A stretch of 64,000 nucleotides of DNA from Owenia fusiformis (taxonomy: Eukaryota; Annelida; Polychaeta; Sabellida; Oweniidae), in contig CAIIXF020000004.1 in NCBI GenBank assembly GCA_903813345.2, forward strand, positions 1,034,513-1,098,512. The letters run 5' to 3'. Shown piece by piece: positions 3,835 through 59,700 of the stretch (position 1 is its first letter; every line of letters begins with the position of its first letter). Position numbers and translations under genes: made by a program. The notes under the pieces are model-generated. The model made no database searches and had not been told where the DNA came from. It saw only the letters and a list, made by a program, of their open reading frames with translations.

Positions 3835-3999
3835 GAAACGGCGATATTTCTGAAGAAGAATTTATTGGTTCGTGGAAGCGGGCGTTCGGTGGCAGCGACG
3901 ACCAAGCTTTGTTAGTATTTGGTCAAATAGATAAAGATGGAAGTAAAAGTATTACAATGGATGAGCTCAGTAACCTATACAAAAGCATGGATGTAGATG
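3835..3999 (+). CDS. EF-hand calcium-binding protein, internal exon
   Basis: This exon lies between a TTTACAG acceptor and a GTAAAC donor. Two bases complete a Gly codon from an unseen upstream exon, followed by 54 codons and one base. It encodes the end of one EF-hand loop (GNGDISEEEF), a linker (SWKRAFGGSDDQALLVFGQI), a complete loop DKDGSKSITMDE with Asp at positions 1 and 3 and Glu at 12, and the start of a third loop (DVD). The loops match the 12-residue calcium-coordinating consensus, so calcium binding is likely. The protein's cellular role cannot be told: it could be a small calmodulin-like or secreted EF-hand protein. Splicing to 4514 keeps frame and completes the third loop, which strongly supports this model. 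Confidence 0.85.
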
Positions 4000-4513
4000 G
4001 TAAACAGTTACACATATCATTTTCTCTATATACATTTTCACAAAATTGATAAAAAAGATGTCGCCAGTAATTTTGTCGGATATAACTTCACAATAGCCAA
4101 TATGGAGCATAGATGTCTCAATCTTATCCGTAAAATTGATAAAAAGCTATCCATAAAAAGAGGTCTCTCGCATTCTTACATGAGATCCTTTCAAAATATT
4201 TCCATATTATTTTTGAAATAAAACGAAAGAAAATTTAAAAGTCTCTTAAATCCTCAACTAACATGGAAACTTGGAATTGCATAAAATCAGAGACATATAA
4301 AATATATGTCTATGTGTAGATTACTAAGTAAGTATTTCTATTATGGGTATATCCGTAATATTATAGTATAGTAATAAGCAAATGTTTTAATCTATTAAAA
4401 ATGAGGGAGCTGTGAAATACGCTATGGTATTTTTGATCACGTGGTACTGAATCAGCCAATCAAATCACACGATTGCTAGCAATGATATAACTATCTTTAA
4501 TATTGTATTACAG

Positions 4514-4572
4514 GTGATGGAACTATTACAAAGAAGGAGTTTATTGGAAAATGGAAGGAATTGCTTCGTTAA
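4514..4572 (+). CDS. EF-hand calcium-binding protein, terminal coding exon
   Basis: After a TTACAG acceptor, this exon finishes the Gly codon begun at 3999 and encodes DGTITKKEFIGKWKELLR, then TAA at 4570-4572. Joined to the previous exon, the third EF-hand loop reads DVDGDGTITKKE, a canonical 12-residue loop. The short basic tail after the F helix is typical of small EF-hand proteins. The intron (4000-4513) is 514 bp. Five bases after the stop codon a 52-bp minisatellite begins, so any 3' UTR either contains repeat units or is spliced across them. Each unit holds a donor-like GGTAAG, and a TTTATTTCAG acceptor-like site ends at 6170. Confidence 0.85.
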
Positions 4573-4577
4573 AAAAG

Positions 4578-6053
4578 GATGTTTGGTGTGTGTACATAGA
4601 CTATGCAATTTATGATGGTAAGATGTAATGATGTTTGGTGTGTGTACATAGACTATGCAATTTATAATGGTAAGGTGTAATGATGTTTGGTGTGTGTACA
4701 TAGACTATGCAATTTATGATGGTAAGGTGTAATGATGTTTGGTGTGTGTACAGATACTATGCAATTTATGATGGTAAGGTGTAATGATATCTGATGTGTT
4801 TATATAGACTATGCAATTTATGATGGTAAGGTGTAATAATGTTTGGTGTGTGTACATAGACTATGCAATTTATGATGGTAAAGTGTAATGATGTTTGGTG
4901 TGTGTACATAGAATATGCAATTTATGATGGTAAGGTGTAATGATGTTTGGTGTGTGTACATAGACTATGCAATTTATGATGGTAAGGTGTAATGATGTTT
5001 GGTGTGTGTACATAGACTATGCAATTTATGATGGTAAGGTGTAATGATGTTTGGTGTGTGTACATAGACTATGCAATTTATGATGGTAAGATGTAATGAT
5101 GTTTGGTGTGTGTACATATACTATGCAATTTATGATGGTAAGGTGTAATGATGTTTGGTGTGTGTACATATACTATGCAATTTATGATGGTAAGGTGTAA
5201 TGATGTTTGGTGTGTGTACATATACTATGCAATTTATGATGGTAAGATGTAATGATGTTTGGTGTGTGTACATAGACTATGCAATTTATGATGGTAAGAT
5301 GACATGATGTTTGGTGTGTGTACATAGACTATGGAATTTATGATGGTAAGGTGTAACGATGTTTGGTGTGTGTACATATACTATGCAATTTATGATGGTA
5401 AGATGTAATGATGTTTGGTGTGTGTACATAGACTATGCAATTTATGATGGTAAGATGACATGATGTTTGGTGTGTGTACATAGACTATGCAATTTATGAT
5501 GGTAAGATGACATGATGTTTGGTGTGTGTACATAGACTATGCAATTTATGATGGTAAGGTGTAATGATGTTTGGTGTGTGTACATATACTATGCAATTTA
5601 TGATGGTAAGATGTAATGATGTTTGGTGTGTGTACACAGACCATGCAATTTATGATAGTAAGATGACATGATGTTTGGTGTGTGTAGATAGACTATTGAA
5701 TTTATGATGGTAAGGTGTAATGATGTTTGGTATGTGTACATAGACTATGGAATTTATGATGGTAAGGTGTAATGATGTTTGGTATGTGTACATAGACTAT
5801 GCAATTTATGATGGTAAGGTGTAATGATGTTTGGTATGTGTACATAGACTATGCAATTTATGATGGTAAGGTGTAATGATGTTTGGTGTGTGTACATAGA
5901 CTATGCAATTTATGATGGTAAGGTGTAATGATGTTTGGTATGTGTACATAGACTATGCAATTTATGATGGTAAGGTGTAATGATGTTTGGTATGTGTACA
6001 TAGACTATGCAATTTATGATGGTAAGGTGTAATGATGTTTGGTGTGTGTACAT
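4578..6053 (+). repeat. 52-bp minisatellite, 28 full units plus a partial 29th
   Basis: Units start with GATGTTTGGTGTGTGTACAT and end in GATGGTAAGGTGTAAT. Unit starts checked at 4578, 4630, 4682, 4734, 4786 and 6034 are in exact 52-bp register: 6034 minus 4578 equals 28 x 52, so net indel is zero. Variants cluster locally: a GATGACAT ending around 5300-5510 and 5660, and TATGTGTACAT at 5730-6000, as expected from homogenisation. The array starts just after the EF-hand stop codon. The last unit is cut off after TGTACAT. Confidence 0.95.
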
Positions 6054-7589: not shown

Positions 7590-7591
7590 TA

Positions 7592-12285: not shown

Positions 12286-12314
12286 ATTATAAATAAGTAC
12301 CTTTTATGCCTCAG

Positions 12315-12450
12315 ACGACGACGAAATAAGGAACTCCTCACGACTTTTATGATAGCAACCATTATGCTATACCTCCAGTCGACGACGAAAATCACCTTGA
12401 TGAGGATCGGCGTTGAACCAGATATATCAAAAGACAACAGAGCTCTCGAG
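12315..12450 (+). CDS. LicD-like gene exon 1: signal-anchor region
   Basis: The donor is GAG|GTAGGA at 12451. Two acceptor-like sites are possible, GCCTCAG ending at 12314 and CCTCCAG ending at 12378, followed by similar words (ACGACGACGAAAT and TCGACGACGAAAAT). I prefer 12315 because the added residues give a basic RRRRNKE and a hydrophobic LLTTFMIATIMLYLQ, the expected type II anchor. The frame then continues STTKITLMRIGVEPDISKDN. The 499-bp MITE ends only about 30 bp upstream, and the open frame runs back into it, so the true 5' structure is unclear. Confidence 0.55.
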
Positions 12451-15400
12451 GTAGGATGAAGGAAAATATTTCATAACTATCACCGGACTCAATTTACATT
12501 ATGAGAATGATTGTCACTATATCCAAGCGTATTATTGAACATGTCAAACGTTTTGTACAAAACTGCTCTTAATTTTTTCAAAAAATATTCACATTTATAT
12601 ATTATTAAATTCAATGAGTATACAATTTTACTTGCAGATATCGCTTACAACAGAGTTGTACTCCGTTAACAAAACTACACAAGCTACACGCCTCACTCCC
12701 AGCGTACACGCCCAGCTACAACTTATTTCAATATGTGACAATAACAACATCTCTCTGGTCCTTCTTGACCCGAGACTTCTCAACAACAGCATGGAATCAA
12801 CTCATAACCTAAAGGAAGCGCTCATTAACAAACCCCTAGTCTCATATGGCATCAATCGTGAAGATTTGGCTGGACCCAAATTGGTAAATATATATGCCGG
12901 CCCGTAGCGGGGGGAGCTTGCCAGGAATTCTTTGAAAATCAAGCAGTTTTCACCATTCTGAGCACTTTTCGCATGATTTTTTAGCCAAAACTGTCAAAAC
13001 TCCCCCTTTGGCAAAGCCTCCCCCTAGATAAGGCTTGCTATGGACAAGGTACATATCATAATTTCTTCCCCGTAAAGTATGACAATGAGTGGATTCTCGA
13101 AGTGTCTTAAGCAGGTTGAAATTAGATTGAATATTTACCAAGAGTTTGATGTAACATAGTAACAATTTTTGAAAGTTATTTCATTTATTTTTTAATTTTT
13201 GAAACAAAATTGTATTTTAACTATTTCTCTTCCACGTCACTCAGTTCATCCAATTTGCGGTCGTGACTCAAGCAAACTTCATTCTAACAACGTAAAATTC
13301 TATTTTTTGTAGGAAAAATTCTACCACGCACTAGAGGGTAACAAATACCAAGTTTCCCTCTTAAAAGATGGAGACAAGCAAGTATATCATATATTCTTAA
13401 CAGTGCCATCTATGAGCCAGTGGATCCACTTAGCCATTATATATCACAGACACGGTAGCTTTTATTGGATGGGGCCTTTAAATGTTGAGACAACAGGCAA
13501 GAAACACCCACCAGTGAGGAGCATTAGTTTCCCAGCTGCATTTAAGAGGTAAGTGTGTAGTAGTATCACATAAGGTGTAAACGTCAATTCTCACACATAG
13601 CAACGTATATATAAAATATCGTAAAGACTGAAATTCAACCAGGTCAGCATTTTGATCTCCACAAGCACCCAATTAATTATTTCAATATTCATTGAGACTT
13701 AAAAGTAATTTGAAGTAATTCCCTTGAGCAAAGTCACAAAATGCTGCCTAAATACTAAATAATAAAGTAAATAGCATTCATATCTCTCGGATAATAACAA
13801 ACACTTATATCTAAAAAAAGAAATAGTAAAATGACTGAAAATGGCGTGGAGTAAATAATCATATGCGACAAGGAGCTCGGATTTCTATTGTTTTTCAGTC
13901 TTACTGTAACTAAGAGTGCCATCCCTGGATTGTATTTACCAGCATCTATCTCCAAATATCTCAGTCTCCAGTTAAGAACATTCCAAGTTAATCGATTGTT
14001 GTATTTCCAGTCTTACAGTAACTAAGAGTGCCATCCCTGGAGTGTATGTACCAGCATCAACCTCCATGTATCTCTAAAGCTTAGAACATTCCAAGTTTAT
14101 CGCTTGTAATATTTTCAGTCTAACAGTAACTAAGAGTGCCATCCCTGATTTGTATGTACCAGCATCAACCTCCATGTATCTTTACAGTTTAGAACATTCC
14201 AAGTTTATCGCTTGTGTAATATTTTCTGTCTTACAGTAACTAAGAGTGCCATGCCTGGATTGTATGTACCAGCATCAACCTCCATGTATCTCTAAAGCTT
14301 AGAACATTCCAAGTTTATCCCTTGTAATATTTTCAGTCTTACAGTAACTAAGAGTGCCATCCCTGGAGTGTATGTACCAGCATCTACCTCCATATATCTT
14401 TACAGTTAAGAACATTCCAAGTTTATCGCTTGTAATATTTTCAGTCTTACAGTAACTAAGAGTGCCATCCCTGGATTGTATGTACCAGCATCAACCTTCA
14501 AATATCTCAGTCTCCAGTTAAGAACATTCCAAGTTTATCGCTTGTAATATTTTCGGTCTTACTATAACTAAGAGTGTCATCCCTGGATTGTATGTACCAG
14601 CATCAACCTCCAAATATCTCAGTCTCCAGTTAAGAACATTCCAAGTTTATCCCTTGTAATATTTTCAGTCTTTCTGTAACTAAGAGTGTCATCCCTGGAT
14701 TGTATGTACCAGCATCAACCTCCAAATATCTCAGTCTCCAGTTAAGAACATTCCAAGTTTATCGCTTGAAATATTTTCAGTCTTACAGTAACTAAGAGTG
14801 CCATCCCTGGATTGTATGTACCAGCATCAACCTCCATGTATCTTTACAGTTTAGAACATTCCAAGTTTATCGCTTGTGTAATATTTTCTGTCTTACAGTA
14901 CCTAAGACTGCCATCCCTGGATTGTATGTACCAGCATCAACCTCCATGTATCTTTACAGTTTAGAACATCCAAGTTTATCGCTTGTGTAATATTTTCAGT
15001 CTTATAGTAACTAAGGGTGCCATGCCTGGATTGTATAGACCAGCATCTACCTCCAATTATCTCTCCAACGTAGAACATTCCAAGTTAATCGCTTGTAGTA
15101 TTTTCAGTCTTTCTATTACTATGAGTGCCATCCCTGGCTTGTTTGTACCAGCATCTACCTCCAAGTATCTCTCCAGTTTAGAACATTCCAAGTTAATCGC
15201 TTGTAATATTTTCAGTCTTATAGTAACTAAGAGTGCCATCCCTGGATTGTATGTACCAGCATCAACCTTCAAGTATCTCTCCAGTTTAGAACATTCCAAG
15301 TTTATCGCTTGAAATATTTTCAGTCTTACAGTAACTAAGAGTGCCATCCCTGGATTGTATGTAACAGCATCAACCTCCAAGTATCTCTCCAGTTAAGAAC

Positions 15401-17202
15401 ATTCCAAGTTTATCCCTTGTAATATTTTCAGTCTTGCTGTGACTAAGAGTGCCATCCCTGGATTGTATGTACCAGCATCAACCTCCAAGTATCTCTCCCG
15501 TTTAGAACATTCCAAGTTTATCCCTTTTTACCAAACCAGAGCTGCTGAGTTTAACACGGCCAATAAACTGTCCAAAGCGGCCCAAGTGAAAGCAAACAAA
15601 ACTGCTAATAAGGCGCGGGAGATATTGCGAGCCACAAAAGATGTGTTGGATAAAGTTGGCATGAAGTTTTGGTTGACTGATGGCACGCTGCTAGGTAAGT
15701 CTGTAAATAATACACATCGATTCTGAATGGTGCAGACATAACGCTTTATTTGTAGGTTGGTACAGAGAATGTTCCTAAATTTATTGAATAGTACAGATAA
15801 TATGGCTTTTTGATAGAATGGTGTAGACAGCGTGCCTTTATATCGCAAACAATGCGCCTTATTTTGTAGAACAGTGCAAAAAACGTGCCTTGATTTGTAC
15901 AGTGGTATAGACAATGTGACTCTATTGAAAGAGTTGTGCAAACAATGTGGCTTTATTGGTGGGATGGTGCAAAAATGGGCCTTTATTTGTAAATGGTACA
16001 TATGGTATAGAATGCCATGCTTATATAGTGGTACAAATGAAGTTGCTATATTTGCAGGATTGTAAAAATCTGTATATTTTTTGTAGGGTGGTACAGACAG
16101 TGTGATTTCATTGCACACACCAATGATGTCGATGTTGGGACCTGGATCACAGATTTTAATCCCGACTTAGAAAAACTTCTTAAACGCCGGGGACAACCAA
16201 TCAGGATTTTGTACCACTATGGCAAGGTCAGACTAACCAACCAGGTTCTTGTTATCACTATTGTTCCCCGTTATATTCTAACCAGTGATGGTCATATTTG
16301 CGATCTGGATGAATATATCATACTCACCTGTGGAATATAGCATATCGATCGGATGAGTTGGTATATTCCACAGTTAGTATGCTAAACATTGGTTTCAGTG
16401 AATACGCGATACTCGTGGTCGTGGAATATGTCGAACTCACTTGTGGATTATGCCATATAACGCAGGTGAGTATGACATATTCCGCAAGTGAAAGCATGAT
16501 ACAGATGGCCTCGATTGGTAGAGGGAATTTACATATATTAAATGCGATTCGAGCCCATAAATATGGATCCTTGAGTGATAAAGTTTATTACGTTTGATTG
16601 CTGAGTCATACTTCTGTGAGTATCTGTAAATCGTGATTGGCAATACCATCTATATATTCACCTGTAGAATATGACCTATATTTGGAGTTGTACCGTGTCC
16701 AACCGCCGCACAACTATATCATGGCTAGTTTTTGTCTGCTTCTTGTCTGTTGTTGTTTTTGTCGCATTTTATTACATTTTGGATAATTAGTAATTCTGTG
16801 TTCATTTAATATTGAGGCACTTTGCATTTCTTATTTCGGTTTATATTGTATTTTCAGCCGTCAGATGGATTCGAGTTAACAGTACAAGGATTCGACATGA
16901 AGTTGGATATACAATTCAACTACAAAGACGCGAATCACACATGGACTGGTGGACTTATTTCTACGTCATTACAAAAAGTGCGATGGATTTATCCTCTAGA
17001 TATTCCCCTTTGCTCAGCTGAGTTATTCGACGATCTCTACTTTGTGCCATGTGACACTGTAGCTATTATAGAGGCAAATTATGGGCCTACTTGGATGCTG
17101 CCTGACAAAAAGTGGATCTGGAACAAGTCTGCTCACAATCTGGTCGAAGCAGGGAAGTTTTCAGAATCAGACAGAAAAGAAGTCGTACAAATATTTTTGT
17201 AA
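12315..17202 (+). CDS. LicD/fukutin-like phosphotransferase gene, six exons recognised
   Basis: The gene-level model joins 12315-12450, 12638-12883, 13313-13548, 15432-15694, 16087-16226 and 16858-17202, all with GT/AG borders and matching phase. The product begins with a basic cluster (RRRRNKE) and a short hydrophobic segment (LLTTFMIATIMLYLQ), suggesting a type II Golgi/ER membrane protein. A lumenal stem follows, then the LicD nucleotidyltransferase-like core: FWLTDGTLLG, WYRQCDFIAHTNDVDVG with a DxD motif, and a C-terminal part ending near YGPTWMLPDKKWIWNKS. Family members such as fukutin move ribitol- or choline-phosphate onto glycans. Substrate cannot be told here, and orthology to fukutin itself is not claimed. 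The initiating Met is uncertain: an upstream exon may supply it, or ATG 12349 may serve. Introns 3 and 4 contain junction-anchored tandem arrays. An AATAAA at 17467-17472 is a candidate polyadenylation signal. Confidence 0.85.
12638..12883 (+). CDS. LicD-like gene exon 2: lumenal stem
   Basis: Acceptor CTTGCAG, donor TTG|GTAAAT; exactly 82 codons, phase 0 on both sides. It encodes a stem segment with possible N-glycosylation sites (NKT, NIS, NNS) and phrases such as ISLVLLDPRLLNNS and KPLVSYGINREDLAGPKL. This region precedes the catalytic domain. Animal LicD-like proteins have similar variable stems. Confidence 0.8.
12897..13025. repeat. Dispersed repeat, copy B (partner at 1460-1620)
   Basis: It begins 13 bp into intron 2 of the LicD-like gene and shares the ordered words GCAGTTTTCACCA, GAGCAC, GCCAAAACTGTCAAAA and TCCCCC with copy A. 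Confidence 0.6.
13313..13548 (+). CDS. LicD-like gene exon 3
   Basis: Acceptor TTTTTTGTAG, donor AAGAG|GTAAGT; 78 codons plus two bases (AG) that pair with the T opening exon 4 to make Ser. It encodes a segment rich in aromatic residues (EKFYHALEGNKYQVSLLKDG, SQWIHLAIIYHRHGSFYWMG, SISFPAAFK in the joined frame). The phase fit to 15432 is the main evidence that the last repeat unit, and not an earlier one, carries the productive acceptor. Confidence 0.85.
13899..15431 (+). repeat. Tandem array of exon-4 acceptor half-exons (14 units before the true exon)
   Basis: Units follow an acceptor-like TATTTTCAG and start at 13899, 14011, 14119, 14229, 14337, 14445, 14557, 14669, 14781, 14891, 15000, 15108, 15216 and 15324; the functional exon starts at 15432. 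Spacing is 108-112 bp, and the last four steps are exactly 108. Each unit repeats the first ~90 bases of exon 4 (S-L-x-V-T-K-S-A-I-P-G-L-Y) plus its acceptor. Eleven of the 14 upstream units keep the AG; those at 14229 and 14891 read CTG and 14557 reads CGG. The last four upstream units are close to a 36-codon periodic reading frame, but stops in units 15216 and 15324 block read-through into exon 4. Confidence 0.9.
15432..15694 (+). CDS. LicD-like gene exon 4: start of nucleotidyltransferase-like core
   Basis: Acceptor ATTTTCAG at 15431, donor CTAG|GTAAGT at 15695. One base completes Ser, then 87 codons, then one base. It encodes LAVTKSAIPGLYVPAS, a basic amphipathic stretch (AAQVKANKTANKAREILRAT) and the LicD hallmark FWLTDGTLLG, whose Gly-Thr corresponds to the turn before the active site in this superfamily. 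It is the fifteenth and only intact copy in a tandem series: only here does the frame run on into the conserved core. Confidence 0.88.
15720..16086 (+). repeat. Short tandem array (~31 bp) built on the exon-5 acceptor
   Basis: About a dozen degenerate units with consensus near TTTATTTGTAGGGTGGTACA then GACAATGTGCC run from 15720 to the true exon-5 acceptor (TTTTTTGTAG|GGTGGTACAGACAGTGTG at 16087). Units are clear near 15745, 15807, 15859, 15890, 15921 and 15952. The unit therefore joins the end of the intron to the first ~20 bases of exon 5. Confidence 0.75.
16087..16226 (+). CDS. LicD-like gene exon 5: DxD motif
   Basis: Acceptor TTTTGTAG, donor AAG|GTCAGA. Two bases complete Gly, then 46 codons. 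The product GWYRQCDFIAHTNDVDVGTW continues the LicD core, and DVD is the metal/nucleotide-binding DxD of the family. It ends RGQPIRILYHYGK. The intron before it carries the ~31-bp junction array. Confidence 0.9.
16858..17202 (+). CDS. LicD-like gene exon 6 (terminal)
   Basis: Acceptor TATTTTCAG, phase 0, 114 codons and a TAA at 17200-17202. It encodes PSDGFELTVQGFDMKLDIQF, a WTGGL motif, RWIYPL and the conserved tail segment NYGPTWMLPDKKWIWNKSAHN. These match the C-terminal half of fukutin/LicD-like proteins. The intron before it (16227-16857) contains short inverted words around GTGGAATAT but no further coding sense. Confidence 0.9.
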   Translation, partial: PSDGFELTVQGFDMKLDIQFNYKDANHTWTGGLISTSLQKVRWIYPLDIPLCSAELFDDLYFVPCDTVAIIEANYGPTWMLPDKKWIWNKSAHNLVEAGKFSESDRKEVVQIFL

Positions 17203-30570: not shown

Positions 30571-30574
30571 GCTA

Positions 30575-44839: not shown

Positions 44840-47073
44840 CTTTAAGGAATTAAGGGCAAGAGTTGGTGTCATGTAACAGTAAATAAATGAACAAAAATTC
44901 ACAACATACTTTAAAGGACGGGATAATTATATCTTGGAAGGTGATATCATTGGAAAGAATACAGAAAGGCATTGCTGCTTAAAACGGCCTTTCAGACTGA
45001 AATAAGTGACTTTTCCGTTGACATGTTGGATGCTTTCCCGTGCTGTTTTTAATTTGGCAATACTCACATACTATATAACAACTGATCTTTTTTATATTTA
45101 TAGTTTTTAAATAACAATTCGATTGATCTATTGCTGAGAAAATATTTGTCAAATAGCGGCTCACTTTTTTGGGACACCCGGTATATATGAACTTCTCCCT
45201 TAACGCTTAAATAGTTTACTTTATCAAGGACATAGTGATGCAATACATGTGTATTGGATGTTACTTACTTGGCCTTGAAATTTCCACTCCATTTAGTAAA
45301 TTGTTGGCTTGGCCCGAACTTAGTATTGAATCATCACACTTGATATAATATCTGAATACACGTGCATTGCGGACGACGGGAAGCGGCAACTAACACATTC
45401 GACTTTATGTAAGTAAATTATAAAGAAATGAAATATTAAATATATATTAGAATTAACATTTTCTGAGGCAGATCAACCGGACAAATGTTTAGAAAATTAA
45501 CACTTTTTAATAACGATGACCAAGTATGCACCATTTGACGGGCCTCTATTGTATATTGCATTGTATATATGATTTTAGGCGGTACAAAAGGCAGAATAAG
45601 AGAATATTTGATCTTATTCTTAATTGCGTGAAAGTATGATTTGCCTATCAATGTATTCTTATAGAATATAGAATTGTCAAACAATGGCGTATTTCATAAA
45701 AAGATAATTTGTAACTGTGTTAAGTTACAAATAACAAGCGTGGCTCCACATCAGATTTATATAAAATTGAACACATAATTGATCTAGTTTTCATGGAAAA
45801 CAGATATCTCGTGGAATGACGATATGAGTCTTAAACTAAAATAAAACACATTTTAGAAAGTCGCTCGCCGTATACGATTCGATTTTTCAATTATGGAATG
45901 TCCCAATTGGTCGATCGAATCATTTTGCTTTGCAAATCAAATGTCAAAGGATGGGATGGAAGCCAAATCTTTAAGGAATTAAGGGCAAGAGTTGGTGTCA
46001 TGTAACAGTAAATAAATGAACAAAAATTCACAACATACTTTAAAGGACGGGATAATTATATCTTGGAAGGTGATATCATTGGAAAGAATACAGAAAGGCA
46101 TTGCTGCTTAAAACGGCCTTTCAGACTGAAATAAGTGACTTTTCCGTTGACATGTTGGATGCTTTCCCGTGCTGTTTTTAATTTGGCAATACTCACATAC
46201 TATATAACAACTGATCTTTTTTATATTTATAGTTTTTAAATAACAATTCGATTGATCTATTGCTGAGAAAATATTTGTCAAATAGCGGCTCACTTTTTTG
46301 GGACACCCGGTATATATGAACTTCTCCCTTAACGCTTAAATAGTTTACTTTATCAAGGACATAGTGATGCAATACATGTGTATTGGATGTTACTTACTTG
46401 GCCTTGAAATTTCCACTCCATTTAGTAAATTGTTGGCTTGGCCCGAACTTAGTATTGAATCATCACACTTGATATAATATCTGAATACACGTGCATTGCG
46501 GACGACGGGAAGCGGCAACTAACACATTCGACTTTATGTAAGTAAATTATAAAGAAATGAAATATTAAATATATATTAGAATTAACATTTTCTGAGGCAG
46601 ATCAACCGGACAAATGTTTAGAAAATTAACACTTTTTAATAACGATGACCAAGTATGCACCATTTGACGGGCCTCTATTGTATATTGCATTGTATATATG
46701 ATTTTAGGCGGTACAAAAGGCAGAATAAGAGAATATTTGATCTTATTCTTAATTGCGTGAAAGTATGATTTGCCTATCAATGTATTCTTATAGAATATAG
46801 AATTGTCAAACAATGGCGTATTTCATAAAAAGATAATTTGTAACTGTGTTAAGTTACAAATAACAAGCGTGGCTCCACATCAGATTTATATAAAATTGAA
46901 CACATAATTGATCTAGTTTTCATGGAAAACAGATATCTCGTGGAATGACGATATGAGTCTTAAACTAAAATAAAACACATTTTAGAAAGTCGCTCGCCGT
47001 ATACGATTCGATTTTTCAATTATGGAATGTCCCAATTGGTCGATCGAATCATTTTGCTTTGCAAATCAAATGT
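44816..47073. repeat. 1129-bp tandem duplication, two apparently identical copies
   Basis: Copy 1 is about 44816-45944 and copy 2 is 45945-47073. Corresponding landmarks are offset by exactly 1129 bp (frames at 44979/46108 and 45436/46565), and I found no differences on line-by-line reading. The junction reads AAATGT|CAAAGG, and the outer edges share GT. Each copy contains a solitary mariner-like tip (TTTTTTGGGACACCCGG). Confidence 0.95.
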
Positions 47074-48973: not shown

Positions 48974-49022
48974 ATGGCCCTCTTAAATCCAGTTGTAATG
49001 CTATTGGTGATATACGCTCCAG
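48974..49022 (+). CDS. Exon 1: signal peptide
   Basis: ATG at 48974 in AAGATGG context encodes [16 protein letters not shown] and a first G, then GTAATG. It is a compact hydrophobic signal peptide. The phase 1 donor matches exon 2, where GLIAVP follows, giving a plausible cleavage region. Confidence 0.7.
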
Positions 49023-52000
49023 GTAATGCTGTAACCAGAAATACAGACTTCAAGGTTGAATTGTAATTTGAAATATTATGCTATGGAATGTAAACGAATT
49101 GAGAACAAATCAAGTTGATTCAATGGGGATTACTAAAAAATAATAATCACGTCATCATCAGTTTGGAGAACAAATGTGTTTCACGAATAAAGATAATAAT
49201 ATTTTTTTAATAATTTTAGCGACTGCATTATTGGAGTTTGGTACTTAGGCTTCGTGAAGTTACAGGATGGACCATTGATACATTCTTATTTTTATTTTTA
49301 AAGGTTTAATTGCTGTACCAGTATTAACAACCACACCAATGTTTAATACAGCTACACCAACAGATATAGATTCTCCTTGCAATACTGGTATTTCCATCCC
49401 CTGGAACGGAGGTTACCAGTGCATTTGTCCACCCAACAAACGAGGCAAAAACTGCAGTGAAGGTAAGCAATTGAAAGAGTAGAAAACCCCATATCACATA
49501 TTTTAACACTTGGTATTTCCATCCCCTGGAACGGAGGTTACCAGTGCATTTGTCCGCCAAACAAACGAGGCAAAAACTGCAGTGAAGGTAAGCAATGAAA
49601 GAGTAGAAAACCCCAATATTTACATAGCTGAATACTGGTATTTCCAATACCCTGGAACGGTGGTCACCAGTGCATTTGTCCGCCCAACAAACGAGGCAAA
49701 AACTGCAGTGAAGGTAAGCAATTGAAAGAGTAGAAAACCCCAATATTTACATATTTGAATACTGGTATTTCCATTCCCTGGAACGGTGGTTACCAGTGCA
49801 TATGTCCGCCAAACAAACGAGGCAAAAACTGCGGTGAAGGTGAGCAATAGTATAGTTTCCATATAGCTTTTGAAATCTCGCTAAATCTCGTTTTTCGTGA
49901 GATTTTAAGAGACTTGCATATTAGACCTCTAATGACTTACATTACCTTCTTTTAAATGGCATATTTGAATTCAGTGAAATGTTTTCTCCTATAATAGCTT
50001 TGATTTACACAGTTATGTAATTTGAATAATTTTCTATAACAATTTAAAAAAACTTGGGCCAAATGTCCATAGATGCAATGCTAAAATCCTTTAAATCTGT
50101 GGATTATTTGTATGTCAATCAACATTTGCATGTTTAATCACAAAATGTACATAAACAGGGTCATCATGTGGTATATCATTCAAGTTTTATACAGATTCAA
50201 CAAACACACTTTGATAAATCATAAAATTAAGCCACTTTTCCAAGATTTTAGCATGTAAATGAATGGAGCTCTAGCCCGAGTTAAAAGCTGAATAAAAGAT
50301 GGCAGCACGAGATTTCATTGATTTTTCTGCTATTTAGAAACTATCCTATTGAAAGAGTAGAAAACCCCAATATTTACATATTATTTTAATTCTGGTATTT
50401 CCATCCCCTGAGACGGTGGTTACCAGTGCATTTGTCCGCCAAACAAACGAGGCAAAAACTGTAGTGAAGGTAAGCAATGAAAGAGTAGAAAACCCCAATA
50501 TTTACATAGCTGAATACTGGTATTTCCAATACCCTGGAACGGTGGTCACCAGTGCATTTGTCCGCCCAACAAACGAGGCAAAAACTGCAGTGAAGGTAAG
50601 CAATTGAAAGAGTAGAAAACCCCAATATTTACATATTTGAATACTGGTATTTCCATTCCCTGGAACGGTGGTTACCAGTGCATATGTCCGCCAAACAAAC
50701 GAGGCAAAAACTGCGGTGAAGGTGAGCAATTGAAAGAGTAGAAAACCCCAATATTTACATATTATTTTAATTCTGGTATTTCCATCCCCTGAGACGGTGG
50801 TTACCAGTGCATTTGTCCGCCAAACAAACGAGGCAAAAACTGCGGTGAAGGTAAGCAATGAAAGAGTATACATAGAAATCCCAATACTAACACAGCTGAA
50901 TACTGGTATGTCCATCCCCTGGGACGGTGGTTACCAGTGCATTTGTCCACCCAACAAACGAGACAAAAACTGCAGTAAAACCCTTATGTGTACACATATT
51001 TTCCATAACACTGGTGGATAAGGGAGGGGGTCCTAGATGACCCTCCCACTGAAAGTTAAAGAGGTACAGTAAAAATTAAACTCTCGATGGAGGTCTCATT
51101 AAAGTCAAAAAAGTAGGTCAAATGAGGTCAAAAGTAGGCCAAGGTAACACAGGTTGTTTCATGGAGTGGGCTTTTTGCGTATCTTTTACTTTTACAATTG
51201 AAACAGCATATAATGTTTTTTTTGCCAGAAAAGGGGTTCTAAATGCTATAAATGTATATAGTATCTATCTTTTAAGGACACAAGATGTTGGTAAGTATAT
51301 ATCTTTCCAAAATCCAGAGATGGGTAAATTGGTCGAAAACATGAAGAAATGAAATTTCAAATAATGGGGAGAGGGGAGACCAAGCAGTCCTTGACATAAA
51401 ATAGTGAATAGATATTATTTTTTCAAAATAAACATCCTTGGAAACACCCCTTGCTATAACATAGTTTACAAATTTTGGATATTGTTTGAGTATTGGCTGA
51501 AAAAAGGTTTTAGTGCATCTCGGCAAGTATGAACGCAATCTCGCAACGTGACGTTTTCAAGCAATTTCTGAAAAAAAACCAAAGTTCCCGACTCAGCCAC
51601 TCCGATTACCTCGATTTTTGCACCAAAATGGGTATTTTATCTGTAGCTAGAGCTACTACGATTACAATTTTGTCATTGCGAGAAGTAACAGGGAAAAATC
51701 CTGAGGGGTGGGGTTATCCCCCGTGTACACATTGGGCTAAGGCATTTAAAACCTTTAAAGTCCCCCAATAAAGTTTAAACCACATTGGCTTATATTGTAG
51801 TCTTACCCAATGTTATCAGAATCTGATATGTGAAACTTTTTATTTTAATTTTAAAAAGTGTTTTTTGAAGAAACTTTTGTTCGGAAAATCATGAATTTCT
51901 TTAAAACTAACTTTTAGGGGTTACACATATCTTTTAATAACCAATAATGGATACCAAAGAACAGCATTCATCTTCACGTGCTTTTTGCCGAAAAAATTAA

Positions 52001-55000
52001 GAAAATCGGTTCATAAATAAGCGAGAAATGAACTCATCAATCCATGAAAATCTAAAACAAATACATTCTTCCTTTTAACCTGGTAAAACAATCACCATTG
52101 ATTTAATTTTGAAGTGTAGCATATTTAGAATGTTTTTTGCCACCTGGTTGAGTCATCGATTACATCACTCAGTTTGATATTTTTGATATGCTAAAACATT
52201 GAAGTGGGACATTAGATGGGGCATTTTAGTGGGGCATTTTATTATTGAAATAGTGTGTCCTTCGTTCAATCTTTGCATAGGTGTTAAAAATATTATCTTT
52301 TTGAAATGTATGGTGGAATATTTGATGATTAAAAAATTACAACTTTTTTTGAAAAATGGCGGGAAATTTGAATATTTCAGAAATGAAAAGCTAATTTTTA
52401 TTCAAAAAATCTCTAAAATGACTTTTAAAGTCATATAACAAAAAGTAAATTAATGATAAAAACATATTTTTGTAACATAACACGGGGACTTTAATATTTT
52501 ATATATCGGAAACCCATAAACATTCCATTGAGTACAGATTTAGTCAAATGCTACATTTATTTTCAGATTTTCCTAATGCTGATAGCTGTACATGGCCAGG
52601 GAATGGTAAGTCATAACAAAAATAAAAAATCATGTATAATAGTAACAAGACAATGTAGATTATTAAGTAGTATCTATGGGAAATCTCCATCTTGTGTTTT
52701 ATTCATATTGCATGTTAACAAGATCAGATATATTTCAAGAATAAATCGACGTCTACATACAGGGTGTCTAAAAAACAGGACCGTAAGAAAGTTGAATAAT
52801 TCGGTCAATTTTGCATATTTTGCCTTGGAATTTTTGAATTATTAAGTTCATTCAATGTGAATTTTGTTGTGAAAGTTTGATATTGATCTGCAAGTTGAGT
52901 CGAAAACTACAGTTCCTTACAAAACATGGCCCAAATGTACGTGCACCTCTCCTCTCTATGGACAATTAAATCCGGCGAACAAAGATGTTAATGATCCTCC
53001 TACACACATTTCTTTTTGAATTGACAAGTTTGTTCCAAGAACAATTACTACTAGGGCTAACATCCTCCTGATGAAGTGTCGCAGCGATCATTGCATTCTG
53101 AACAATGCAATGCCTGGGTGGCAATGAGCAAACATGGAATCATCAGTCCTTTATGGTTTAAAGATGAATGGGGACGTGCTATCCCATGAACAAGGACCAG
53201 TATGTTCAAGTTCTTACTAAGTTTTGGAGGTCACTAAGCACCATAAGTGGCGTCTAAGGAGATAGGCAGTGGTTTCAACAAGCCAATACCACCCAAACAC
53301 TGCAAATGATATGGTAAAATTGTTTAGGCAATGCCTAGGTGGTCAGCTCATCAGTCGCCGAACTCAAAACATATGGGCAGCTTATTCGCCAGATCCAAAT
53401 CTCTCAGATTTTTATCTTTGGGGATTTCTCTAAGCCAATGTGTATATTGAGAGGCCCCTAACAATTTTAAGAGTGAAATAACTACCCCAATTCGTACCAT
53501 CCACATTGATGTGTATAGGTCAGGGTCATCAACTTTGGTCGCAGGATTCATTTGTGCATAGAGAGAAGAAGTGACCATTTTGAGCATGTTTTGTAAGATA
53601 CTGTAGTTTTTGACACAATGAACAGATTATCATAAAAATTTCATAACAAAATTCACATTGAATGAACTGAATAATTCTAAAATTTCAAGGCAAAATATGG
53701 AAAATTGAGCTAATTGTATGTTTGAATGTGTGTATAAAGGTTACCTCTGGTGTGTTTGACACCTGTTCCCCTATGAGCTTTTTTCATTCAGTCTCTGAGC
53801 ACGATAAGCTAAGCGCTGTCGCCGTAACCACGAGGTCAGGAGTTCGAGATGCGTGAGCTGCTTGCGTTTATGCATATATGATCAAATACATTTTTACATC
53901 ACTACCTGAAATGCTACTGTAGTGTCACTTTTTGTGACTTGCGTTGGTCGTCGGCGCTTGTATGAATTGTAAAACGTAGAATTGTAGATAGCAGAATTCT
54001 GTCTGTAATTACATTTACTGGGTAGTTTCCTTCTCAGTTTTAGATCTGTGTTTACTTTCCGTATTTAGTTACACCATCGAATCGCAAGTAATGTTTCTGC
54101 GAGAAATCCAAACAGTTGAAAATTTACGTTCAGCACGTAATGAGGATACCGTTGCCTTCTTAAAGTTTTAACTTAAATAATATTAAATAGTCTATTTAAT
54201 TAGTTAACACATGTGTACAGTGTCAATAACAATGAAATGTTTCTTGTTTTTGTAGAGAACGCCTGTTCCTCAGCTCCTTGTCATGGAGAGGGCGCCGTGT
54301 GTATAAACACATTTGGCGGCAATTATAAATGCTTATGCCCACCCGGGACAAGTGGTGATCGCTGTGGTCAAGGTAAGAAAAAACTATGAAGTCATATCTA
54401 CGATCCTTGTATTAGTTAAAATAAGCAATATTAAACGTCTGAATTACATTTTGTATTTCATTGTATATTCATATTCTATACATATACACGCGTGATAATC
54501 TGTTGTAAAATTCTAACTCGATATTTTGCAATATATGCAGCCATGTAGTGATTACAAAATTCAAAAATCGTCATTTTGTCACATTTGGATCGCAAGGTAA
54601 TAGCCGAACTCTTTTGGATCACTGATTATGAATTCATGGTCAATTATAGATAGTCAGAAAATAACAATTTCAATGTTGTCGATATCGGTCAAGGTACTTA
54701 TAGGATATCCTATGATTTTGAGGAATATCATTTTTATCTACGAGGTGATATTGATATCTGCACGAGAGAGCAAAGCGAACGAGTGCATATATCAATATCA
54801 CCGAGTAGATTAAAATGATATTCTGAAAAAAATCATAGGATGTTATCCTACACTTACAAGGAGTGTACTAAATGTATAATATCATTGCAAAATGAATTTC
54901 ATGCCAAATAGAGTCAGTCTGGAGGAAAATCAACAAGCGGAGTATATCGTCACAATATCCTCCGCATATTGGGTTTTCCGGAGTAAATCGTTACGATATC

Positions 55001-58000
55001 CTCCGGTTATTCATTTTGCCAATAAATATCAAATTTATTTTTTAATGTTATTATACATTTAGTACATTAAGTGTAGGATAACTGGGAATATCAGCCTTGC
55101 GGTTGTTTCGTGCCATTCACTTTCTCATTGGTTCTTCTAGTAATAAACTATAATTCATATTTCATTACTAGGTAATTACTGCTTTCTCTGCTCAAGTAAA
55201 AGATGGAGGAACGTCACGTGTCCTGTGTTCGACAAAAAGCCATTCTTGGCATCGATGTCTGTACAAGACGTAACACTCAAGACTCAAGTATCGAGGTAGG
55301 ATCAAATGTTTATAATAAGATCTGTTAATATATAGGTTAAGGTAGAACTTCACAGAAGATCAGCTTTTTCTCCAATTCAGATTTTCTTGAAAAGAATCAT
55401 GGTAAAAGATATACTGATGTATAACATAATATGTGAAAATGAGAAAAATTGACAGTCTGGTTTTTTCAAGAAAAATATTTTATCCACATTGCATGCGGTG
55501 AAAAGTCACAGTCCGGATCCGAAAAAATTTTTTTAATAAAAATAATAAATTAAGTATTTAGAAATATCAAGAAAATACTAAGTGGTTCCAAAAAGGATAA
55601 AAAAAAAATAAATAAATAAAATACACCCCGGGACTCAAACCCGCATCCTCCCGCCTGTTAGCGCCTGTTACTTGTTACCCCTATAAGATATCCCGGCAAC
55701 GTTGAAAGGGAGATAATTTTGGGGTAAATATATATACAATATTGATTCTCGTCCACCGGGAACCTTTGCGAGAGTAGGATTTATGATGCGCGAACTGACT
55801 GCGCAATGGTTATTTAACTTTTACCTAAAGTTATACGTGACGTTATTAGACTCCAGATATTGTTTTTGCCATTATTTTATTAGACTCCATATGATAATCT
55901 GGAGTCTATTGTTTTTGCATCTTTTCTTTATTATTAGACTCCAGATGATAATCTGGAGTATATTGTGTTATATCTTTGTCTTTCTCTTGTAGTTCTCTAA
56001 AACCTTCTTTTGTTATGCTGTAGAAGTGTTGTTTCAGCTGGTGTGATTTCTGCTTCTATGGACATCAAATTTGAATGGGTCTGTTTCAACTCACAAGGTA
56101 GATCAGGGATTTGTGTAGTGAAATGAAATGTCCAATGACATAGCGCTCACTTCAAATTGTTCTTCTTTATTGTCTTCTTCCTCTTCTGTAAGTAGAAAGA
56201 AAGAAAGTAGGTCAAAACATAAAGTTCTCCATATACGTGTAAGTTATTAAATAAGGGTAGACTTTTCTCAGGAAGCCGAATCTGGAAACCAAATTTCGAT
56301 TGGTCTGACCAGTTTGTCTGTAAGGCCTATCTGGTCTGTCTGTCCAGTCTGTCTATCTGGTTTGTCTGTCTGGTTTGTCCGTCTGTCTGTCAACCAAAAA
56401 AAACATGTCTAGTTACAATTATTGTCTAAGAGAGAGCGGGTAAAAATTTGATTGAGAGAAAAAAAGTGTGTGATAGAGAGATATAGGAAGAGAGAGGGGG
56501 AGGGGAGAGAAGAAGTCAGGGAGAGAGAATTACAGGTGTAAAAGGGTAGGTGGTCCTATCAAATTTTGGGTCCTACTCTCTATTGATTTATATGGTGACC
56601 TAATAACAATTATTTTCCTTATTATTTATACACAGTCAGGGCCAGTAAGGGCTGTAAGGAAAGGGGACTATAATCCCAGGGGACCATAATTTATTTTACA
56701 CGAGAGAGAGGGAGAAAAGGCGAGAGACAGAAAGTAAGAGAGACAGATAACGATACATGGAAGATATACATTGTTCGCTGTGTATTTCAGGACAAGATGC
56801 ACGGTGAACGACAAATGGGACTTCGATTACAACACAGGGACCATGTGGGTAGCTAAAGGTTGCAGGGGCGAGTTTTGTGTAAACTTTCAAGAATCTATTG
56901 AGGCTACAACAACAGTGACTGATGCTACAACAACAGTGACTGATGCTACAACAACAATGACTGATGCTACAACAACAGTAACCGATGCTACAACAACAGT
57001 GACTGATGCTACAACAACAGTGACTGATGCTACAACAACATCGACTGATGCTACAACAACAGTGACTGATGCTACAACAACATCGACTGATGCTACAACA
57101 ACAGTGACTGATGCTACAACAACAGTGACTGATGCTACAACAACCATGACTGATGCTACAACAACAGTGACTGATGCTACAACAACAGTGACTGATGCTA
57201 CAACAACATCGACTGATGCTACAACAACAGTGACTGATGCTACAACAACAGTGACTGATGCTACAACAACAGTGACTGATGCTACAACAACAATGACTGA
57301 TGCTACAACAACAGTGACTAATGCTACAACAACAATGACTGATGCTACAACAACTATGACTGATGCTACAACAACAATGACTGATGCTACAACAACAGTG
57401 ACTGATGCCACAACAGCAATGACCGATGCTACTTCCACTGCCTCGCTGCCAACAACAACCCTTCTACCAACCCTTTCAAAAGGTATGTCAGCTAATTCTT
57501 TTATAATAAATCTAGATCAAAATTTTTGTTTTCCTTATTTTTGCGACCCTGACACAACTATTCAATAGTTTTCTTTGAAGATATATACAGCAAAGAATAT
57601 GCTAATAGGGTAAGAATTACGTTTAGCACTCAGAAGGTATTTTGACCTAGTTTTGAGAGGTCAGTGTCAATAAGATAGGTCAACAAAAAAAGTCCTCCAA
57701 ATTCTGATATTTTGTGAACGTTTACCTGGGCAATATAATTACCTATGAATTCGTGAAGAAAGCAAAAAAAAATAGCAAGGCTTCATAGGTGAAAATAGTC
57801 GAACATGGACTTTTCACTACAGAATACGCTTCAATTGCAATAATTCTTTTATATTACCGTAAACATATCTTATTCCGTGCAATTTATAAAGTACATGCAT
57901 TAATGCGTGCGCCTGTTAAATAGATATAACGTATTACATCACAAAAGTACATGAAAATGTGGTTTTAAACTCGAATAGAAGGATCTGACACATCTAGATA

Positions 58001-59228
58001 TTGGCTACTCAAAGTGGATTTAGAGATCATACTCCACCATTATTTAAAGAATTAGGAATTCTCACCATTTCTGATATAGTTAAAGTCAATGTGGCAGAAG
58101 TCTTCTTTAAGTGGCAAAATAATGAAAATAACCTTCATGATATATTTCCCAACTTAATTATTTAAAAGACATATTGAACTACATAAGTATGATACAAGAG
58201 GTAAATATAACTATGCCTTGCCTAAATTTAAAACAGGAACCTTTGGCAAAAAGATGCTTTCATTTTCTGGACCATCAATTTGGAATGGCCTCCCATCAGA
58301 AATAAAAAAAATCAAGGTCAAGTAAATGTCTTAAGTCTAAATATAAGAAACATATTCTGGCGTTGTATGCATGATCTTCTTCTTTTTTATATTTATGTAC
58401 TGCAGCCTCCTTATCCATGTTCTATCTCCTTTATAGAAATATATACAGATATAACTCCAAGCCTGGGAACTGGACACTAAACTAGTTAGCTTTTTATCTA
58501 TGATGCACCTCTCCCTCCCTCTTCGAATTTCACTTAGACAAAACACAACCTTGACATGTTTGATTCATTGACCTTACCTTGCTCTTAATATTTGTAATAT
58601 TATAGTTCTACATGTACGGGTATAAACATCGGGAATGATGTCACCTGTTAATTATTTTATATGTAACATGTATTATTGTATTATTAAGGAATAAATTGAA
58701 TTGAATTGATTTGAATAAATACACCTATTGAAATCCTCAGAAAATAGCCAAAATGTAACATACGAGAGTCCGAAATATGTTGCGATACTTTCCCTCCTCA
58801 TTTTAACTTCTTTGTCATAATAAGACTCTATAATGATAATCAGATTACTCATAAAGTAGCATGTCCCAAACATAATCGAAATGTATGAGCAATTGCATAC
58901 GTATAGTTTTGTAAACGATCAACAAATATTTGTTTATTGTACATATATGAACACATTTTCAAATAATCTCTTAAGATAAATAAGAATGCAGTTATACTTG
59001 CATTGCTAAGTTCCAATAAATTTAATTATACTAACAAGATAAACGAGATTAAAAAACAAGAGACTTGGATGCAATCACGTTGTTATGTATAAGTCTATTT
59101 TGTTTCAGCTGAATTGGAAGCTGTCTATGCTGGTTGTAGGAGGCCATTTCCGAACGACAGTCTAAATGGCCATACAGTTTATGAAGACCTAACGATAGAG
59201 CTGTGCATTCATGATTGCAGACAAAAAG
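48974..59228 (+). CDS. Secreted EGF / GCRxF-domain / mucin-repeat / WSC protein gene, 3' end not found
   Basis: The gene-level model joins 48974-49022, 49304-49462, 52567-52605, 54256-54372, 55172-55295, 56791-57482 and 59109-59228, all GT/AG with matching phase; all but one junction are phase 1. The product order is signal peptide, EGF-like region, short linker, complete EGF domain, a Cys-rich module ending [11 protein letters not shown] (like DUF3011-type domains), 25 heptads ATTT[VMS]TD, then the start of a WSC domain. This is an extracellular, probably heavily O-glycosylated protein; WSC domains bind glycans in other proteins. The chain continues past the last exon found, so a transmembrane anchor is possible. 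A TATATATA at 48949-48956 lies about 20 bp before the ATG. Confidence 0.8.
49304..49462 (+). CDS. Exon 2: Thr-rich linker and EGF-like half domain
   Basis: Acceptor TTTTAAAG, donor GAAG|GTAAGC, phase 1-1. It encodes [20 protein letters not shown] then [18 protein letters not shown] and NKRGKNCSE, with C..C.C........C spacing like the second half of an EGF domain. The expected first two cysteines are absent, so it may be a partial or atypical EGF. The 3' part of this exon with its donor is repeated eight more times downstream. Confidence 0.8.
49387..50990 (+). repeat. Tandem array of exon-2 donor half-exons (9 units, ~125-131 bp)
   Basis: The word GGTATTTCC marks units at 49387 (true exon), 49512, 49637, 49764, 50394, 50519, 50646, 50774 and 50905. 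Correcting for the 501 bp added by the MITE and its target duplication, steps are 125-131 bp. Each unit repeats the last ~75 bases of exon 2 (GGTTACCAGTGCAT, AACAAACGAGGCAAAAACTG) plus the GTAAGC/GTGAGC donor and some intron. The first Cys codon is lost in the copies. Units 3-4 and 6-7 are almost identical, showing a later block duplication. The last unit has lost its donor. Confidence 0.9.
49849..50347. mobile_element. 499-bp MITE, copy 2, inserted in the EGF half-exon array
   Basis: The ends AGTATAGTTTCC and GAAACTATCCT are inverted. The flanks GAGCAAT and ATTGAAAGAG fit the uninterrupted unit GAGCAATTGAAAGAG (50720-50740) if AT was duplicated. It has the same length as the copy at 11787 and few differences from it. 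Confidence 0.92.
51000..52566. other. Intron sequence, no exon recognised
   Basis: It lies between exons 2 and 3 of the EGF/WSC gene. A frame at 51529-51771 is open for 80 codons but has no recognisable domain and no phase-1 exon borders. The rest is AT-rich. Confidence 0.45.
52567..52605 (+). CDS. Exon 3 (mini-exon), probable
   Basis: Acceptor TTATTTTCAG, donor AATG|GTAAGT, 39 bp, phase 1-1. It encodes [13 protein letters not shown] between exon 2 and the complete EGF domain. Strong splice sites and a perfect phase fit support it, but a 39-bp exon could be chance, and exons 2 and 4 also join in frame without it. Confidence 0.5.
52760..53765 (+). mobile_element. Mariner transposon, decayed
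   Basis: The left tip TACAGGGTGTCT follows a TA. Long inverted ends continue inward (left 52797-52890: GCATATTTTGCCTTGGAATT, GTTCATTCAATGTGAATTTT; inverted near 53625-53720), and the right tip is degenerate (TTTGACACCTG). The interior retains transposase words on the + strand: [19 protein letters not shown] with a stop, then [20 protein letters not shown] and FYLWGF, the C-terminal catalytic region of mariner transposases. Stops and frameshifts make it inactive. It lies in an intron of the EGF/WSC gene. Confidence 0.85.
53795..53890 (+). repeat. Possible tRNA-derived SINE head
   Basis: GCACGATAAGCTAAGCGCTG and GGTCAGGAGTTCGAGATGC resemble pol III box A and box B in the right order, about 35 bp apart. 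No cloverleaf can be drawn with confidence, so it is not a tRNA gene. Confidence 0.3.
54256..54372 (+). CDS. Exon 4: complete EGF-like domain
   Basis: Acceptor TTTTTGTAG, donor CAAG|GTAAGA, 117 bp, phase 1-1, the classic shuffled EGF exon. It encodes [18 protein letters not shown] then [20 protein letters not shown]: six cysteines with spacing C-4-C-5-C-8-C-1-C-8-C, and the usual aromatic and Gly residues. No calcium-binding EGF signature (D-x-D/N) is present at the start. Confidence 0.92.
54691..55082. mobile_element. Two adjacent fold-back elements
   Basis: First hairpin, 54691-54860: CTATGATTTT.AGGAATATCA and GGTGATATTGATAT are inverted around GAGAGAGCAAAGCGAAC. Second, 54843-55082: GTTATCCTACACTTA and GTACTAAATGTATAATA and GCAAAATGAAT are inverted at 55010-55082. 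They share the GTTATCCTACACTT word at their border, so one may have inserted into the end of the other. They lie in intron 4 of the EGF/WSC gene. Confidence 0.7.
55172..55295 (+). CDS. Exon 5: first part of a Cys-rich GCRxF-type module
   Basis: Acceptor CATTACTAG, donor TCGAG|GTAGGA, phase 1 to 2. It encodes [19 protein letters not shown] then [20 protein letters not shown]. Joined to exon 6 the module reads ..[30 protein letters not shown]. The pattern of a late Cys, a WGFDY-like segment and a (I/M)WV-x-GCR-x-F ending resembles DUF3011-type domains found in bacteria and in invertebrate secreted proteins. Function is unknown; carbohydrate binding has been suggested only by analogy. Confidence 0.75.
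55620..55705 (-). repeat. tRNA-derived SINE-like fragment
   Basis: On the - strand, GATGCGGGTTTGAGTCCCGG matches the pol III box B consensus and is followed by an AT-rich tail built of TTTATTTA words. Upstream GCGCTAACAGGCGGGAG fills the anticodon-arm region, but a full tRNA fold is not evident. It is most likely a SINE in an intron. Confidence 0.45.
55846..55965. repeat. Short palindromic repeats
   Basis: TTAGACTCCA.ATGATAATCT followed by GGAGTCTATTG occurs twice (near 55877 and 55933), each a small hairpin. A partial copy lies near 55847. Confidence 0.6.
56533..56702. mobile_element. MITE, copy 2 (inverted relative to 48076-48249)
   Basis: Reverse complement of copy 1 over almost its whole length, with eroded tips (GGTGTAAAAG and TTTTACAC). 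It lies in intron 5, just before GAGAGA-rich simple sequence and exon 6. Confidence 0.8.
56791..57482 (+). CDS. Exon 6: GCRxF module end and 25 Thr-rich heptads
   Basis: Acceptor TGTATTTCAG, donor AAAAG|GTATGT, phase 2 to 1. It begins with [20 protein letters not shown] and [17 protein letters not shown], closing the module begun in exon 5. Then 25 heptads ATTT[VMS]TD (56903-57427) and a short [16 protein letters not shown] tail. Dense Thr makes a mucin-type O-glycosylated, extended spacer. The same DNA is also open on the - strand because of the repeat; that frame is not a gene. Confidence 0.88.
56903..57427 (+). repeat. 21-bp coding minisatellite, 25 units
   Basis: The unit is GCTACAACAACAGTGACTGAT. 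It holds a perfect 21-bp period over 525 bp with no frameshift. Changes concentrate in the fifth codon (GTG, ATG, TCG), with a single Asp-to-Asn and one Thr-to-Ala near the end. Confidence 0.97.
57483..58009. other. Intron sequence, nothing recognised
   Basis: AT-rich first part of intron 6 of the EGF/WSC gene. No exon-like stretch with matching phase. Confidence 0.45.
58010..58715 (+). pseudogene. LINE 3' end (ORF2 C-terminus), decayed
   Basis: The + strand words [34 protein letters not shown], then shifted [20 protein letters not shown] and [17 protein letters not shown] match the conserved C-terminal tail of CR1/Jockey-type LINEs (the HxYxTR...SGPxxWNxLP block). A stop and frameshift near 58165 break it. 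It ends in a GAATTGAATTGA-like tail near 58700. Only the 3' end is present, as usual for 5'-truncated LINEs. It lies in intron 6 of the EGF/WSC gene. Confidence 0.75.
59109..59228 (+). CDS. Exon 7: start of a WSC domain
   Basis: Acceptor TTTTGTTTCAG, donor AAAAG|GTAATA, 120 bp, phase 1-1. It encodes [20 protein letters not shown] then [20 protein letters not shown]: a Y.GC opening, a ..Y.DLTIE.C...C helix, as in the N-terminal half of WSC domains. The second half, with FKYAGV-like sequence and further cysteines, must be in a later exon that I did not find. The 3' part of this exon plus donor is repeated four more times downstream. Confidence 0.85.
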
Positions 59229-59700
59229 GTAATACCACAATTATACTTGTAATTGATCAATAATGTGTCTCGTTAATATGCGAGTTTGAATACACCTTAT
59301 GATAACCTAACGCTGCAGGTGTACATTGATGATTCCAGACAAAAAGGTAATACCACATTTCTACTTGAAATTGATTAATATGTCTAATTAATATGCTAAT
59401 TGGAATACACCTTATGATAACCTAACGCTGCAGGTGTACATGAATGATTGCAGACAAAAAGGTAATACCACATTTCTACTTGAAATTGATTAATATGTCT
59501 AATTAATATGCTATTTGGAATACACCTTTTGATAACCTAACGCTGCAGGTGTACATTGATGATTGCAGACAAAAAGGTAATACCACATTTCTACTTGCAA
59601 TTGATTAATATGTCTAATTAATATGCTAATTGGAATACACCTTATGATAACCTAACGCTGCAGGTGTACATTGATGATTGCAGACAAAAAGGAAATACCA
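59229..59700 (+). repeat. Tandem array of WSC half-exons with donor (4 extra units, 115-118 bp)
   Basis: After the true donor (exon end 59228), copies end at 59346, 59461, 59576 and 59691. Each repeats GATAACCTAACGCTGCAGGT, then GTACATTGATGATTGCAGAC and AAAAAG|GTAATACC. The last copy has a changed donor (GGAAATACC). The copies resemble each other more than the true exon does, so they arose by later amplification of one copy. Confidence 0.9.

Follow-up and report, generated by a model that had tools for sequence, protein, structure and literature searches.

Tandem arrays that span exon–intron junctions in the annelid Owenia fusiformis resemble the mirage minisatellites of amphioxus

Tandem repeats that cross exon–intron boundaries have been described in amphioxus as "mirages" in the genes Adh3, BflGb6, and BflGb9, covering acceptors in BflGb6 and donors in BflGb9 (PMC3087553, with reference to Canestro et al. 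2002). According to that report, the authentic copy lies at the exon and AG or GT is kept in many, not all, units; units measure 10–72 bp in Adh3 and 150–160 bp in the globin genes, with 6 units in BflGb6. Concerted evolution is reported inside the cluster, with the boundaries excluded, as are length and somatic instability, and RT-PCR suggests regular splicing (PMC3087553). Intron 7 of human F7 carries 37-bp repeats of which the first holds the donor, and normally only the most upstream 5′ site is used, with cryptic sites farther downstream becoming active when it is weakened (PMC6627357). For the potato RdRp gene, a tandem duplication across an intron–exon boundary is described as supplying splice signals, with a new intron arising (PMC4974935); intron gain by tandem duplication has been reviewed (PMC3443670, citing Gao and Lynch 2009). 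Here, we describe arrays in O. fusiformis that we read, with a probability of about 0.78, as mirage minisatellites produced by ordinary tandem duplication tolerated at junctions and subsequent minisatellite growth.

The O. fusiformis genome has been reported at 505.8 Mb in 12 chromosome-scale scaffolds, with 43% repeats and 26,966 genes (PMC9977687). The assembly that contains our window, the whole 64,000-nt stretch analyzed here (C4:1034513-1098512), amounts to 498 Mb. Arrays with a period of at least 25 make up 14.4% of the window and 8.7% of its flanks (80 kb); their share is 16.4% in 12 random 10-kb regions and falls to 5.2% without two regions, L043 and L045 (C11, ~100 kb apart), both filled for the most part by a 145-bp satellite. 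With these two regions left out, the coverage was 6.8% of the 180 kb outside the window; it was 11% of 143.5 kb. A dispersed repeat with at least 40 further genome matches makes up much of the first 330 bases of the window (window 1-400), a 1466-aa ORF on the minus strand (37270-41670) was recognized by eye as resembling a Ty3/Gypsy-type retroelement polyprotein, and there is a run of N near 42513-43016.

Junctions in the window were scored with probes of 20 nt of intron plus 30 nt of exon, each compared with up to 1.5 kb of the adjoining intron and with 200 dinucleotide shuffles. Four of the 23 probes beat every shuffle: the EGF exon 2 donor (score 100, best shuffle 28), the LicD exon 4 acceptor (85 versus 28), the WSC exon 7 donor (75 versus 26), and the LicD exon 5 acceptor (34 versus 25, reached by 0 of 200 shuffles). 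The remaining 19 did not, two of them having been placed 1–2 nt off exon ends that were later corrected. The initial annotation had counted these as four clear junction arrays, and for three of them TRF, the probes, and a 30-mer criterion agree. The LicD exon 5 array is a weaker case: it was seen with the junction probe, went unreported by TRF at score 50, was missed by the 30-mer criterion (which recovers 3 of the 4 window arrays), and was not singled out by an exon-only probe (27, best shuffle 27). Its units are spaced at 30, 31, 30, 53, 31, 31, 95, and 60 nt, that is, at 30–31 nt or rough multiples thereof.

Table 1. Coordinates of genes, exons, arrays, and the inserted element; positions are those of the window unless a locus is given
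Feature	Position	Strand	Remarks
Fukutin/LicD-like gene	12349..17202	+	six-exon 443-aa frame, Pfam, annotated protein, paralogue
LicD-like exons	12349-12450, 12638-12883, 13313-13548, 15432-15694, 16087-16226, 16858-17202	+	
LicD exon 4 acceptor array	13892..15526	+	TRF; 108-112-bp units x15
LicD-like exon 4	15432..15694	+	frame kept by own acceptor only (translation)
LicD exon 5 acceptor array, decayed	15715..16101 (limits approximate)	+	~31 bp; ends at 16086/16087
EGF-DUF3011-WSC gene	48974..59228	+	488-aa single frame ending in stop codon
EGF-WSC exons	48974-49022, 49304-49462, 52567-52605, 54256-54372, 55172-55295, 56791-57482, 59109-59228	+	
EGF exon 2 donor array	49381..50976	+	TRF 49381-49848 and 50348-50976; 126 bp x9
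505-bp element in EGF array	49846..50350	+	terminal inverted repeats by eye
WSC exon 7 donor array	59172..59725	+	TRF; 115 bp x5
Forkhead-exon acceptor duplication	L038:5081-5194 (C6)	-	perfect 55-bp x2
L033 collagen-like array	L033:7906-9146, ~40 kb upstream of window	-	~113-bp unit, uncounted

In the fukutin/LicD-like frame, Pfam finds FKTN_N above its cut-off (E 9e-7) and LicD below its cut-off. The annotated O. fusiformis protein P0001 (100% match) maps to exons 4–6 plus a further exon at 18803-18856; it is marked partial, and its start is the exon 4 junction, at the array. The paralogue P0002, itself full length, aligns with the entire query (100% coverage, 55% identity), and the alignment crosses the exon 4 join. 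Each unit of the exon 4 array consists of ~15 nt of intron end with the acceptor and ~93 nt of exon start, and the last of these units, nominally 108 bp, is the genuine start of exon 4. Intronic units are 83–94% identical to the exon copy, and 11 of the 14 retain AG. Translation from every one of the 14 upstream unit starts meets a premature stop, and the proximal acceptor yields the 443 aa. As for homogenization, the far-end unit u01 stands apart from the rest (mean 0.83), unlike the exon copy (0.90).

The second gene encodes EGF, DUF3011, and WSC domains, all found by Pfam, the WSC domain (E 2.7e-14) once the frame was joined across the window end; the final coding exon, which carries the second half of this domain, falls beyond that end, in L034 from 866. 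The paralogue P0014 (69% identity over 65% of the query) exposed the 39-nt third exon. A 21-bp x25 coding repeat (TTVTDAT) occupies 56899-57432 inside one exon of the gene. The EGF exon 2 array consists of the exon copy and eight intronic units, each made of exon end plus donor, with GT retained in 7/8; all eight decoy ends lead to a stop at codon 76. The exon unit is 72–94% like the other units over 111 nt. Units e2 and e5 are identical, which probably reflects block duplication of several units. The array is divided in two by the 505-bp element, whose insertion is later than the array. A second copy of this element, 97.8% identical, lies at 11784-12288, and diverged relatives occur at 21912 and 24494 in the window and in L004 and L041. 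At WSC exon 7, the exon copy is followed by four intronic units, again of exon end plus donor, three of which retain GT, and premature stops follow from all four decoy donors. Here the first three intronic units are 95% alike, with the far-end unit 86–88% and the exon copy 80–82% like them.

The three strong arrays bear out much of what had first been noticed: the units straddle exon–intron borders, extend the intron, and leave rows of decoy sites, and early stops in 14/14, 8/8, and 4/4 of the other units leave one productive copy by frame. By reading frame, the exon-nearest site is the productive one, and the decoy sites may still see some use in splicing. The intact copy does face the exon, as had been stated; it does so because, wherever a tandem duplication crosses a junction, the productive site stays beside the exon body and the other copies end up in the intron; the rule is therefore the geometry of tandem duplication, not separate evidence for a mechanism. 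The units had also been called unrelated, and BLAST of the units of the three strong arrays, the 52-bp array described below, and the L033 array returned matches at their own locus only among the sequences compared, which rules out a dispersed-element origin within that set.

Across the LicD, EGF, and WSC arrays, 21 of 26 decoy units keep AG or GT (11/14 acceptors, 7/8 and 3/4 donors), as would be expected if selection maintained the arrays for a role of the decoy splice sites in regulating splicing or expression. We consider such selection very unlikely, as this degree of preservation is about equal to what young, homogenized arrays give anyway, stops and frameshifts are freely present in the units, and copy numbers and units are unrelated from gene to gene. 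Tandem exon duplication for protein diversity, with the intronic units serving as alternative exons, would account for the protein-like sequence retained in the WSC and EGF units and for the collagen-like units of L033, which have both AG and GT. By eye, however, the LicD, EGF, and WSC units each hold one of the exon's two splice sites, and all extended exons that we translated run into a stop, so that hardly any weight can be given to this alternative.

Two further candidates had been proposed tentatively as junction cases, and we dropped both. The EF-hand minisatellite, a 52-bp x28 array (4578..6053, plus strand), begins 6 nt past the stop codon (TAA, 4570-4572), and exon sequence was absent from its unit on inspection by eye. 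The 1129-bp tandem duplication (44811..47068), suggested to lie at a minus-strand acceptor, yielded no gene evidence when this was searched for; its two copies are 100% identical over the 300 nt compared, and it is either a recent duplication or an assembly duplicate. That identity and the run of N would suit an explanation of the arrays as assembly artefacts. The units of the junction arrays, on the other hand, are diverged and one array is interrupted by an insertion, which makes an artefact exceedingly improbable.

We then turn to the proposal that the arrays are repeatedly seeded on junctions. In this alternative, splice junctions or transcription trigger the duplications, through R-loops, a change in base composition, or AG/GT-rich microhomology as candidate triggers, and introns grow preferentially from their ends. 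With each array counted as one seed unit, a seeding simulation gave 0.69–0.72 junction-spanning arrays expected in the window versus 4 observed, in a window preselected for the feature (P(>=4) = 0.003; P(>=3) = 0.02–0.03). For this same preselected window, a Poisson estimate gave P(>=4) = 0.006, and the array rate measured outside gave P = 0.0003. This excess is a point against random seeding.

A sample chosen independently of the feature was assembled outside the window. Of 140 stretches drawn at random (70 sites), 12 served as the random regions, and the edge sample comprised 22 exons or ORFs, hence 44 edges, of which 18 members came from five random regions and 4 from the flanks. The satellite loci L043 and L045 were left out, and no case was scored for the L033 array, which lies in the flanks. 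Edges were the approximate exon or ORF ends, taken as putative junctions and scanned over ±120 nt. ORFs were mostly chosen by eye from the best 9 or fewer per locus of 378, ranked with a codon model that was too weak to find exons and served for ranking only. Eleven of the 22 members are individually supported by a Pfam hit; the others, taken by eye, are two exons of the forkhead gene, an ORF in L044, and eight in L040, and 8 of these 11 (one L044, seven L040) were run against Pfam with no hit. In all, 30 outside ORFs were run against Pfam; 19 had no hit, and 11 of these 19 were excluded from the edge sample.

In this sample the 30-mer scan matched 1 of 44 edges versus 0.55 expected from array density (P(>=1) 0.42), and the 95% interval of the rate, 0.06–12%, leaves room for several-fold enrichment. 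The match is a perfect 55-bp duplication at the acceptor of a forkhead exon, with a 4-bp microhomology (GAGT) at its ends by our own reading; translation from the distal acceptor meets a stop at the ninth codon. It was noticed on reading L038 and then recovered by the uniform 30-mer scan. A hit at the other end of the forkhead ORF was an intronic similarity 1.3 kb away. In an exon-against-flank test (32 exons, 60 shuffles per flank), the forkhead acceptor was not singled out (26, best shuffle 26). Two other scores in this test are uncounted: an L029 EF-hand exon (35, best shuffle 28), probably matching a neighboring EF-hand exon, and the downstream flank of LicD exon 5 (28 versus 25).

Of 38 outside arrays inspected with edge ORFs, only the one in L033 looked exon-bearing, the forkhead case being overlooked at that stage. 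The L033 array has 11 unit starts, ten of them complete; in each of the ten, an exon-like stretch, 87 nt long in six units, is joined to a 20–26-nt GT...AG spacer. In-frame stops interrupt five of the ten complete units, and a sixth has a frameshift. The parent gene of these collagen-like units was not found within the sequences compared. Other coding arrays recognized by eye are an ankyrin-like 99-bp array in L035 and a zinc-finger-like 84-bp array in L038.

Because the forkhead case lies in random DNA, in one of the 12 random regions, the process recurs, in a third gene, as the initial annotation had anticipated. This recurrence is established; enrichment at junctions is not established by the 44-edge sample. 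Seeding anchored on junctions draws support from the window excess, the extra forkhead case, and the exon-like array ~40 kb upstream, and is opposed by the selection of the window for the feature, by the unchosen sample, and by unit ends whose offset from the junction, on our own reading, varies from case to case (~15 nt intron + 93 exon; ~82 exon + 44 intron; ~57 + 58; 44 intron + 11 exon). We regard it as unlikely. The related and wider claim of focused tandem duplication, in which thousands of introns across the lineage would extend from their ends outward and so form rows of decoys, appears doubtful; if true, such junction-focused growth would make exon definition testable in nature. Even unfocused, the expected per-junction rates of 0.7–3%, calculated from array density, would imply thousands of such junctions if the genome has a few hundred thousand in all, a rough figure that we derived from its 26,966 genes.

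Ordinary tandem duplication tolerated at junctions builds on what was observed directly, namely, the anatomy of the arrays, their reading frames, the relations among copies, and one pristine duplication with microhomology. In this reading, short tandem duplications, probably microhomology mediated, would occur throughout a minisatellite-rich genome. When a duplicated piece happens to lie across a junction, the copy beside the exon body would stay correct, and splicing would choose the exon-nearest site because exons are presumably recognized as units (exon definition). The remaining copies would land in the intron and be nearly neutral, with purifying selection keeping one copy only. The array may then expand and homogenize like any minisatellite, through block duplication and perhaps unequal exchange, and so lengthen the intron. 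Junctions would be involved in proportion to unit length, with no preference required.

Junction-spanning arrays constitute a natural competition among near-identical splice sites, in which the productivity of the exon-nearest site alone can be examined within a single genome for donors as well as acceptors. They also illustrate a way in which minisatellites may lengthen introns while leaving the protein unharmed, and the duplicated AG/GT segments that they provide are the raw material assumed in models of intron gain by tandem duplication. Gene annotation may be misled by such arrays: the LicD-like P0001 was deposited as a partial protein beginning at the array.

Such arrays are already known from amphioxus, and Owenia adds annelid cases, though earlier annelid reports may exist. 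With intron gain by tandem duplication, as described for potato and in the review cited, Owenia shares the duplicated splice signals; what the Owenia arrays represent seems to be the lengthening of existing introns, no new intron having been seen. Like intron 7 of human F7 as reported, the Owenia donor arrays are a row of repeats starting at the 5′ splice site, with the exon-nearest copy productive (here by frame); F7 differs in being one vertebrate gene with a donor only and a 37-bp unit, studied experimentally. The published accounts of amphioxus mirages are backed by haplotype, somatic-instability, and RT-PCR data, whereas the Owenia arrays are known from the sequence of one assembly; they also belong to another phylum and reach up to 15 units, compared with the 6 given for BflGb6. 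As to the homogenization pattern reported for amphioxus, the WSC array fits, the LicD array half fits, and the EGF array shows no clear pattern. Like the mirages described there, the Owenia arrays span acceptors or donors, hold the authentic copy at the exon end, and keep AG or GT in most units. Their occurrence in an annelid and in amphioxus suggests that such arrays are a general by-product of minisatellite-rich genomes rather than a cephalochordate oddity.
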